From: Mariniphaga sediminis
Lineage (GTDB): Bacteria; Bacteroidota; Bacteroidia; Bacteroidales; Prolixibacteraceae
NCBI RefSeq assembly: GCF_003573545.1
Contig: NZ_QWET01000003.1
Coordinates: forward strand, 124,001-188,000
Reading direction: 5' to 3'
Length of the DNA: 64,000 nt
Shown: positions 52,302 through 54,769 of the stretch, piece after piece
Numbering within the stretch: the stretch's first letter is position 1
Layout of the letters: each line of letters starts with the position of its first letter
Position numbers and translations under genes: made by a program
The notes under the pieces: generated by a model
Databases searched by the model: none
The model's input: only the letters and a program-made list of their open reading frames with translations
Told to the model about the DNA's origin: nothing

Positions 52302-53213
52302 TCAGTAAAGGCCTTCTACCGAAAGATATCTTTCTCCGTGATCATAGGAGAATGTGAGAATGCGTGAACCGGTTGGGAGTTCTTTTATTTTTTTTGCAAC
52401 AGCTGCCAGCGATGCCCCAGAGGAGATTCCTACCAGCAACCCTTCGAGTTTTGCCGCTTTTTGGGCGTATTCGAAGGCTTCTTCATGGGTTACAGATATT
52501 GTTCCGTCAAGAAGTCCTGTTTTTAAATTGTCGGGAATAAAACCTGCGCCAATTCCCTGAATCTTATGTGGTCCGGGATCCCCTCCGCTAATTACCGGGC
52601 TGTCGGCAGGCTCTACTGCAAATACCTGGATTTTTGGAAATTTATTTTTTAGCACTTCGGCTACCCCGCTAATATGGCCACCGGTCCCCACACCGGTAAT
52701 CAGATAATCGAAACCTTCAGGGAAGTCGTTTACAATTTCTACTGCTGTTTTTTGTTTGTGGGCTTCAATGTTGGCCGGATTGGAAAATTGCTGCGGTATC
52801 CATGAGTTTTCAATAGAAGCGGCCAACTCTTCTGCTTTGGCGATGGAGCCTTTCATACCTTTTTCTTTGGGAGTCAGCACCAGTTCAGCTCCGAATGATT
52901 TGAGAACCCTGCGACGTTCCAGAGTCATGGATTCGGGCATGGTAAGTATCAGCCGGTATCCTTTTACCGCAGCTACCAGCGCAAGTCCGATGCCGGTATT
53001 TCCCGAGGTAGGTTCAATAATGACCGACTCCGGTGTCAAAATGCCCTTTTTTTCAGCATCTTCCACCATTGAAAGTGCGATACGGTCTTTAATGCTTCCC
53101 CCCGGATTGACCTTTTCCAGTTTTACCCATACTTCGTAGTCAGACGGGAAAAGACGGTTCATTTTTACATGGGGCGTGTTCCCGATGGTCTCTAAAATGT
53201 TCTGTGCCTTCAT
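52302..53213 (-). CDS. cysK: O-acetylserine sulfhydrylase (cysteine synthase)
   Basis: CysK makes cysteine from O-acetylserine and sulfide with PLP. The 303-residue protein has the PLP lysine in [16 protein letters not shown], the Asn loop in [18 protein letters not shown], the phosphate-binding [18 protein letters not shown], and [11 protein letters not shown] near the C terminus. The order of residues fits CysK/CysM; the CysK assignment is by similarity. It lies behind a terminator hairpin and a Cys-rich leader ORF on the same strand, which suggests control by transcription attenuation. Confidence 0.94.
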
Positions 53214-53235: not shown

Positions 53236-53270
53236 AAAAAAAAGCTTTCCTGGTTACCCGGGAAAGCTTT
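53236..53270 (-). terminator. Attenuator terminator in the cysK leader
   Basis: On the minus strand AAAGCTTTCC (53270-53261), a 10-base loop, then GGAAAGCTTT (53250-53241) form a perfect 10-bp stem followed by a run of eight Ts (53243-53236). It lies 22 bases before the cysK ATG, so it would block cysK unless opened. The 5' arm segment GCTTTCCC (53267-53260) can instead pair with GGGAAGGC (53320-53313), inside the leader ORF, giving an eight-pair antiterminator with one G-U pair. It could also serve to end the upstream ABC operon. Confidence 0.75.
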
Positions 53271-53296
53271 GGCTATTTAACTAAATTTCTTTCTGA

Positions 53297-53371
53297 TTAA
53301 TTGATATAACACGCCTTCCCTGGTTTTGAAACCCGGCAACATATTGTAATATGGCATGTCATGTTTTGCAT
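53297..53371 (-). CDS. Cys-rich leader peptide of cysK (24 aa)
   Basis: The minus strand holds an ATG at 53371 and a TAA at 53297-53299, with 24 codons between. Four encode cysteine: codons 6, 11, 12 (adjacent TGT-TGC) and 21, against a background of 1-2 percent Cys. The peptide starts MQNMTCHITICCRVSK. Codons 18-20 (GGG AAG GC) form the strand that can pair with the attenuator's 5' arm. A ribosome stalled on codons 11-12 would leave that strand free and allow read-through; a ribosome at the stop would cover it. TATCTTGC (53386-53379, minus) is a near -7 box just ahead. No Shine-Dalgarno is seen, as is usual here. Confidence 0.6.
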   Translation of the reverse strand: MQNMTCHITICCRVSKPGKACYIN

Positions 53372-53428: not shown

Positions 53429-54769
53429 TTAATTTTTATATCTTAACCATTTAATCAGCTCTTTCAGGGTTACTTTTTTCCCGTACATTAACAGGCCGGT
53501 TCGATAGATTTTTGCAGCGGCCCAGATGGAGCCCCATGTTGCCAGAACGAGCAGAAACATGGAAAGCAATAATTCCCATACCGGAACGCCGTAAGGCACC
53601 CGTGCCAGCATGGCAACCGGCGAGGTGAATGGTATGATGGAACCCCAAAAGGCTACCGGTCCTTCAGGATTCCGGGCAATGGGGAACAGCAACATGATGG
53701 AAAGAATAAGCGGGAAGGTAATGGGAAATACCATTTGTTGCGAATCTTCGTCGTTATCTACAGCAGCGCCTACCGCCCCAAGTAACGAGCTGTACATCAG
53801 GTATCCGGCCAGGAAATAAAATACGAAGGAGAAGAAGATGAGCGGAAGGTTCAGGTTCCCGATTAGTTCCATCATTTCCGTTAACTGTTGTTCACCGGCA
53901 GGCTGTGCTATGGCAGGTCCCATTCCCTGCCGGCTTTCCATGAGGCTTTGTCCCATTTGCTGTGAGACTTCAGGGCTGAAAAAGCTTTGGACTGCCAACA
54001 GGGCAATCAAACCGATAACAACCCAAATGGCAACCTGTGTAAGCCCTACCAGTGCTGTTCCGATTATTTTTCCGGACATCAGTTGAAACGGTTTAACGGA
54101 AGAGATAATCACTTCCACAATCCGGTTTTTCTTTTCTTCCATTACACTACGCATGACCATAGCCCCATACATAAAAACGAAAAAATAGATAATAAATCCC
54201 ATGGCATAACTGGCAATAAAAGCTACTTCCGAGGAACTTTTTCTGGCCTGTCCGGTCTCGGAAACCTTGAGAGTATTAAGTCTGACTGAGGTGCGTGTGG
54301 CGGCCAGCCGGTCATCCAAATCCGAAATGCCAGTTTCGGCAATTATTTTTTGCCGTTTATCATTCTCAATAAACCGGCTGAGTTTTCGCGAGATTTGCTC
54401 TTCCAGTTCAAGCGGCACTTGTTTTTCTGAAATAAGTTGTGCTGCATTGTTTGTATAAACGTCTTCGGGAATGTACAACAGCGCATAAAAACTACTTGTT
54501 TTCAGGTTTGTTTTCAGCCTGTCGTATTCTTCTTTGGGAATAAAATGATATCTGGTATATCCTTCCTGTTCCAGTTCACCAAGAAAAAGGGTCGATTCGT
54601 CGTAAACAGCTATTGTTCGTTCCTGCTTGTCATCTTTCACCGATAAAAAGATGATGAGCGCAAACATTCCCGCAAACAGGAACGGTACCAGAAGCGTAAG
54701 TATAATGAACGATTTTTTCTTTACTCTTTTTAAGTATTCCTGTTTGAGTATCAGTATTGTTTTGTTCAT
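53429..54769 (-). CDS. ABC-2 type transporter permease (NatB-like)
   Basis: The 446-residue protein has an N-terminal membrane segment (KSFIILTLLVPFLFAGMFALIIFL), a large extracytoplasmic loop, and five or six C-terminal membrane segments (VAFIASYAMGFIIYFFVFMYGAMVMRSVMEEKKNRIVEVIISSVKPFQLMSGKIIGTALVGLTQ is the conserved ABC-2 signature). Such permeases with a NatA-like ATPase export sodium or small drugs, but the substrate is not readable. It starts 3 bases after the ATPase gene. Confidence 0.88.
   Translation of the reverse strand: MNKTILILKQEYLKRVKKKSFIILTLLVPFLFAGMFALIIFLSVKDDKQERTIAVYDESTLFLGELEQEGYTRYHFIPKEEYDRLKTNLKTSSFYALLYIPEDVYTNNAAQLISEKQVPLELEEQISRKLSRFIENDKRQKIIAETGISDLDDRLAATRTSVRLNTLKVSETGQARKSSSEVAFIASYAMGFIIYFFVFMYGAMVMRSVMEEKKNRIVEVIISSVKPFQLMSGKIIGTALVGLTQVAIWVVIGLIALLAVQSFFSPEVSQQMGQSLMESRQGMGPAIAQPAGEQQLTEMMELIGNLNLPLIFFSFVFYFLAGYLMYSSLLGAVGAAVDNDEDSQQMVFPITFPLILSIMLLFPIARNPEGPVAFWGSIIPFTSPVAMLARVPYGVPVWELLLSMFLLVLATWGSIWAAAKIYRTGLLMYGKKVTLKELIKWLRYKN

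Follow-up and report, generated by a model that had tools for sequence, protein, structure and literature searches.

A probable cysteine-codon transcription attenuator ahead of cysK in Mariniphaga sediminis and related leaders at other sulfur genes

We found that cysK of Mariniphaga sediminis is preceded by a short ORF with clustered cysteine codons and by an intrinsic terminator that overlaps a putative antiterminator. Judging from sequence comparison, this leader is a trp-type ribosome-mediated transcription attenuator that senses the supply of charged tRNA-Cys, with a probability that we put at close to nine in ten. We favor attenuation by a ribosome that responds to cysteine supply because the parts of the leader are conserved and because leaders of the same build match their codons to the pathways of their genes. 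The comparison revealed which parts are present, how far they are conserved, how they covary, and how they are spaced, as well as the match between codons and pathways at many loci. Attenuation is an established type of mechanism; what this case adds is cysteine as the sensed residue and a host from the Bacteroidota, where this type is little described. The proposed cysK attenuator belongs to a group of similar leaders that precede sulfur genes.

The window that we analyzed is a 64-kb stretch (64,000 nucleotides) of a 5.8 Mb assembly, and the features described here are on its minus strand. Downstream of an ABC-transporter permease gene that ends at 53429 come a promoter-like box, the 24-codon leader ORF MQNMTCHITICCRVSKPGKACYIN (53371-53297; Cys at codons 6, 11, 12, and 21), a terminator, and cysK. 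A preliminary description had reported the ORF with its four Cys codons, the terminator, and cysK in this order, and its coordinates were all correct on re-reading. Codons 11-12 (TGT TGC, 53341-53336) are the predicted stall site. cysK (53213-52302, with its ATG at 53213) encodes cysteine synthase A (303 amino acids), and its identification in the preliminary description agrees with the hit to TIGR01139 (405.9 bits, with a cut-off of 350.95).

Four segments of the leader could form alternative stems. Segment 1 (53362-53353) is predicted by folding to pair with 53315-53306, within segment 2 (53320-53306). Another part of segment 2, GGGAAGGC (53320-53313, inside the leader ORF), can instead pair with GCTTTCCC (53267-53260) in segment 3 (53270-53260), which is the 5' side of the terminator. 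Segment 4 and the T tract lie at 53250-53236. The 10-bp stem and eight Ts that had been proposed at 53270-53236 are present: AAAGCTTTCC pairs with GGAAAGCTTT (53270-53261 with 53250-53241), and the Ts are at 53243-53236. If the leader is folded alone, it forms the terminator and a 10-bp stem within the ORF (53362-53353/53315-53306); the fold has a z score of -2.37, and 3/200 shuffles fold equally well. A simple hairpin scan with a loop limit of 8 bases did not list the terminator hairpin, whose loop has 10 bases without two inner pairs.

The leader very probably mediates a starvation response: it would sense low cysteine and then allow the transcription of cysK. We infer that the ribosome and the polymerase are coupled, that the ribosome stalls, and that the outcome responds to cysteine. 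If charged tRNA-Cys were scarce, the ribosome would halt at codons 11-12 and occupy segment 1, which would leave segment 2 free. The free segment 2 would already be paired with segment 3 by the time segment 4 is transcribed; the terminator could then not form, and transcription would continue into cysK. If cysteine were plentiful, the ribosome would reach the stop codon and cover segment 2, and the 3:4 hairpin would terminate transcription.

To examine the conservation of the leader, we compared the DNA upstream of cysK across the family. The nearest cysK records in a named collection are from Draconibacterium, Mariniphaga, Maribellus, and other Prolixibacteraceae (up to 83% identity), and 125 of 140 genomes from the family have a match at 1e-90. 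Our sample of upstream DNA comprised 95 orthologues with at least 69% identity and the window itself, or 96 regions; G007 and G103 were left out despite having that identity, as those sequences lie at contig ends.

We found a leader ORF with a Cys cluster and a terminator upstream of 81/96 orthologues. The preliminary description had suggested aligning these regions; the alignment bears out both the Cys cluster and the pairing of segments 2 and 3, which covaries (see below). The cluster is CCC in 65 of these leaders, CC in 14, and CYC or CSC in 2. Terminators above our threshold were found in 84/96 upstream regions versus 3/480 dinucleotide shuffles. An automatic count found an ORF with CC before the terminator in 80/96 regions versus 0/480 dinucleotide shuffles; the frame that it called in L142, one of the 80, is spurious and lies within the upstream gene.

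Among same-residue triplets in the called ORFs, Cys is the commonest (65), followed by Met (16) and Leu (15). We also considered leucine doublets (58/96) as a signal and rejected them, as on inspection most of them are the TGT run in a different frame. In 33 non-redundant CCC leaders, the wobble base of the three codons is C in 10, 17, and 11 cases, and otherwise T. Because the wobble bases are free, it is the amino acid that is kept and not one DNA string. (The invariant TG in these leaders is a consequence of how they were selected, so we did not count it as evidence.) The codon after CC is Cys in 33 of the 43 leaders with CC. With the 5'-most in-frame ATG as the start, the Cys cluster begins at codon 11 in 61/81 leaders; an earlier choice of start for the spacing counts preferred Cys at codon 11, and the recount used the 5'-most ATG.

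The leader is missing from 15/96 regions. Twelve of these have neither part, including eight from genus g3 and one (L091) from the window's own genus. The other three (L139, L141, and L142) have a terminator directly behind the upstream gene and no leader.

Next we consider the evidence for alternative pairing. In a swap test with 44 non-redundant leaders, which like the covariation tests controls for relatedness only in part, the 1:2 stem has a mean energy of -12.21 kcal/mol with own-species partners versus -9.33 with swapped partners, and the 2:3 stem has -12.43 versus -10.60 kcal/mol. In both cases, 0/10000 permutations were as good. The control pairing 1:3 was unremarkable in this test (1503/10000 permutations as good). 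The effect is moderate: only 4/44 leaders for 1:2 and 7/44 for 2:3 pair better with their own strand than with that of any other leader, and the own strand beats the mean of shuffled strands by two standard deviations in 11/44 and 28/44 cases, respectively.

In the alignment, 81.3% of the cells in the 2:3 helix are paired versus 77.8% in shuffles (0/500 as good), and 25 cells have double changes versus a shuffled mean of 5.6 (0/500). If the helix is slid, 37-64% of cells are paired. Two of the five covariation measures for 2:3 fail to exceed the shuffles: the number of pairs with a double change (4 versus 2.9; 129/500) and the number of pair types (13 versus 12.1; 182/500). Also, one of the nine pairs that we drew forms in only 2/44 leaders. 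RNAalifold predicted the terminator alone from the alignment of 44 leaders, with double changes in 8/10 pairs of the consensus stem. Overall, the swap test and covariation support an antiterminator that overlaps the terminator. This pairing of GGGAAGGC with GCTTTCCC had been proposed in the preliminary description, with the right positions; the 1:2 stem inside the ORF and the leaders at other sulfur operons had not.

The spacing of these parts fits as well. The Cys cluster begins a median of 21 nt upstream of segment 2 (interquartile range 21-23), the stop codon ends a median of 12 nt beyond segment 2, and a median of 26 nt separates the stop codon from the start of the terminator. A ribosome covers roughly 15 nt on each side of the P-site codon, so segment 2 would be exposed during a stall and covered once the ribosome is at the stop codon. 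This geometry was part of the original proposal, and masked folding in silico also agrees with it. With transcripts that were cut before segment 4, at least four 2:3 pairs are expected in 79/81 leaders with a stalled ribosome, 13/81 with a ribosome at the stop codon, and 57/81 with no ribosome. Four pairs were likewise reached in 102/220 controls in which segment 2 had been shuffled. For the window's own leader, the expected number of 2:3 pairs is 9.20 if stalled, 1.85 at the stop codon, and 9.04 with no ribosome. The 1:2 stem co-evolves, as judged by the swap test, yet it appears to be no firm block, as 2:3 forms without a ribosome in the model. When the whole transcript is folded, the terminator wins in each of the three ribosome states; a switch of this kind therefore has to be kinetic and would operate during transcription.

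The promoters of Bacteroidota have a -7 box with the consensus TAnnTTTG. TATCTTGC (53386-53379) is a candidate for this box and would put the start of transcription a few bases 5' of the leader's ATG. TAnn(n)TTG, a pattern that we picked after inspecting the sequences, occurs within 45 nt before the ATG in 78/81 leaders versus 162/810 mononucleotide shuffles, and the commonest start of the box, seen in 27 leaders, is 15 nt upstream of the ATG. In L091, the leader and terminator were lost and TATATTGC was kept. Transcription likely starts a few bases before the ATG of the leader.

To find related leaders in the same genome, we searched it with a covariance model built on the cysK leaders. The window's cysK leader scores 88.9 bits (E = 8.7e-15). 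The leader MKNYSSDIKMNSVACMCMCCKFILVQKEWYR (E = 7.3e-6), which has the Cys motif MCMCC and a terminator, precedes siroheme-cysJ-cysI (L234:3750-3880, minus strand, or G000:C67:302249-302379). An Ile/Leu/Val-rich leader, MKLIATYILVILVVVSGFAGMG (E = 8.7e-4), is followed by a terminator and ilvD (L236, G000:C21:52794-52926, minus strand). A third leader, MQNSFANNSTATYNMACMCSAFTLWKR (E = 0.002), ends with MACMCSAFTLWKR and lies with its terminator before a DUF4395 gene (L237:3433-3571, minus strand, or G000:C45:175932-176070). The downstream genes were identified by HMM (PF14340 for DUF4395). We read 10 hits of the model in this genome besides cysK; at the 7 other than these three, including C5:17078 (E = 5.9e-4), we saw no leader.

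Across the family, the siroheme gene has matches in 83 genomes. Among the best 30, we found a Cys leader and terminator in 26, of which 23 have CMCC. All 15 of the siroheme-cysJI leaders that we folded form an antiterminator duplex (-10.8 to -17.3 kcal/mol). In two genomes (G018 and G009), the siroheme-cysJI locus has kept the terminator and has just a sparse Cys motif, MCMW (L409 and L419). These genomes also lost the ORF of the cysK leader (L139 and L142), or in other words, the two leaders decayed jointly.

We read 30 further hits from the family, namely 20 high-ranking hits away from the 96 genes and 10 lower ones, which were not consecutive; G048:C643, G058:C433, and G123:C582 were left out. 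These included 25 Cys leaders, 4 branched-chain leaders before ilvD, and 1 with no leader. The genes behind the 25 Cys leaders are 11 osmC-like, 2 cysK2, 11 siroheme/cysJ, and 1 cysK, where the names OsmC, cysK2, metB, OAH-type enzyme, and MoeB come from HMM matches of one example each and the rest were assigned by eye. There is also a second class of leaders, with (C)MCCC and a terminator of the GCCCTTCAC type, before osmC-like genes and cysK paralogues and relatives of metB or moeB (L183, L214, L215, L216, L218, L221, L223, L226-L229, and L251).

Outside the family, we assigned leader classes by eye, as well as several of the genes (ilvD, some asnA, trpE, and osmC). The best 20 hits from the rest of the order comprise 11 Cys leaders, 3 branched-chain, 2 Trp, 2 Asn, 1 Met-rich, and 1 without a leader. 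Eight of the Cys leaders are before cysE (a protein search matched each of these genes), and the others are before cysM-like, cysK, and osmC-like genes. The branched-chain leaders precede ilvE and ilvD, the Trp leaders precede trpB and trpE, and the Asn leaders precede asnA. In the sample from the phylum, 20 of the 29 loci were read: 7 have Cys leaders, 5 have branched-chain leaders, 1 each has an Asn, a Trp, or an Ile/Thr leader (the last before aspartokinase), and 5 have none. The Cys leaders precede cysH, cysH-cysD, cysK, a peroxiredoxin with cysK, mercaptopyruvate sulfurtransferase, carbonic anhydrase, and a porin. Two cysK loci from Ignavibacteriales have ICCC leaders and terminators (L029 with 54.1 bits and L070 with 41.1 bits).

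Asn-rich leaders (e.g., NNNQNNSSNNN) with terminators were also seen before asnA in other Bacteroidota (L302, L295, and L260), with asnA identified by HMM in L302 and by eye in the other two. L299 has a Met-rich leader (MMMAMMMC) and a terminator before an O-acetylhomoserine (OAH) sulfhydrylase, and could possibly be a methionine attenuator.

Cys leaders are not universal in the phylum. Their distribution is patchy: we found them at 5 of the best 30 matches for cysH, all from one genus (that of G487), and at 5 of the best 30 for cysE in the order. The automatic caller missed at least one Cys leader, L352, which the covariance model found as L287. The model has hits in 136/140 genomes from the family (E of 0.01) and, with E of 0.001, in 129/295 from the order and 105/296 from the phylum; these are not counts of leaders because many of the weak hits are plain terminators.

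On balance, we lean towards a single regulon in this family, in which cysK, siroheme-cysJ-cysI, and the osmC-like/cysK2/metB/moeB operons each have a separate Cys-codon attenuator. Together with sister attenuators for Trp, for Ile/Leu/Val, for Asn, and perhaps for Met and Thr, these would make leader peptides one of the major means of amino-acid control in Bacteroidota, largely undescribed so far and extending into the Ignavibacteria.

Could the Cys-rich leader act by another route? The nascent peptide might sense a metal or the thiol/redox state, or control might be through Rho or translation, as proposed for the Cys leaders of Actinobacteria. These Cys-rich leaders act without an intrinsic terminator, and for the mycobacterial ones the accessible part of PMC1262725 reports that no conserved terminator hairpin was found. 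Also, some of our leaders precede genes that are not cysteine-biosynthetic by name (peroxiredoxin, carbonic anhydrase, porin, DUF4395, and OsmC-like). However, the cysK leader does have an intrinsic terminator with an overlapping antiterminator, and most of the targets that we read are for cysteine synthesis or sulfur assimilation. Furthermore, the runs of Trp, Asn, or Ile/Leu/Val in leaders of the same build point to tRNA charging. We consider another route to be unlikely.

It is more improbable still that the hairpin is just the terminator of the ABC-transporter gene and that the ORF is incidental. That gene does end a mere 58 bases from the leader's ATG, and in L139, L141, and L142 a terminator directly follows the upstream gene with no leader. 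But a plain terminator needs neither a Cys-cluster ORF, which is kept in 81/96 orthologues, nor the 2:3 pairing, and the same build is found again before other sulfur genes. A metabolite-binding riboswitch or a T-box is the least credible alternative: the leader is structured, conserved, and before a biosynthetic gene, but no Rfam family matches the window or the leader at its gathering score (the leader's PyrR and Phe_leader scores, 23.5 and 18.9 bits, are below cut-offs of 54 and 55, and its other match is unrelated and on the plus strand), and on reading, the alignment has conserved Cys codons and stems and no other conserved core.

The attenuator that we propose for cysK resembles the proteobacterial attenuators of the trp, his, leu, thr, and ilv operons, which also have an ORF with cognate codons, the stems 1:2, 2:3, and 3:4, and an intrinsic terminator before the first gene. 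It differs from these in having Cys as the cognate residue, in its Bacteroidota host, and in not matching any Rfam leader model at the cut-off. Canestrari and colleagues reportedly described polycysteine leaderless ORFs of mycobacteria in 2020. The actinobacterial leaders share runs of Cys codons in a short ORF before cysteine genes, and the cysK leader is perhaps nearly leaderless too; unlike them, as far as the accessible part of PMC1262725 describes them, it has a conserved terminator and antiterminator, and its Cys cluster is in the middle of the ORF.

Another similar leader is uORFC-8-2, which precedes cysS in Rhodobacterales and has tandem Cys codons (usually codons 14-15) and a U-tract terminator; the available portion of PMC8632094 proposes attenuation. 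We compare it by its description: the tandem Cys codons and the U-tract terminator are shared, but uORFC-8-2 belongs to a cysteinyl-tRNA synthetase gene in Alphaproteobacteria instead of to cysK. In the sections available to us, PMC13236596 also covers Cys leaders or attenuators outside Bacteroidota. Within the phylum, there are clues for leader-peptide attenuation at amino-acid operons of Flavobacterium psychrophilum, although the part of the main text that was available names no cysteine leader and gives no detail of the mechanism (PMC9723704), and the accessible text of PMC7366714 mentions that 5' UTRs of a Bacteroides contain short ORFs.

Our literature search turned up no Cys-codon attenuator from Bacteroidota and no account of how cysteine synthesis is controlled in this phylum; its coverage excluded most subscription journals, so an earlier description is possible. 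The proposed attenuator, which the comparison supports strongly and which recurs at several sulfur operons within the family, would be a direct and testable answer about cysteine control in Bacteroidota. It also counts against regarding attenuators of amino-acid operons as mostly gamma-proteobacterial: according to the available part of PMC3766115, Rfam then had attenuator leaders only for His, Leu, Thr, and Trp, and a gamma-proteobacterial origin was suggested.

Because the codons of a leader name its amino acid, leaders can hint at the roles of poorly known genes, such as those for OsmC-like proteins and DUF4395. The leader in the window's genome hints at a possible role of DUF4395 in sulfur metabolism. 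We rejected the DUF4395 leader as a steady member of the regulon and treat it as a lead, as only 2 of the 30 best matches in the family have a Cys leader: the one in the window's genome and, alone among the other 29 relatives, L374 (MCTCC).
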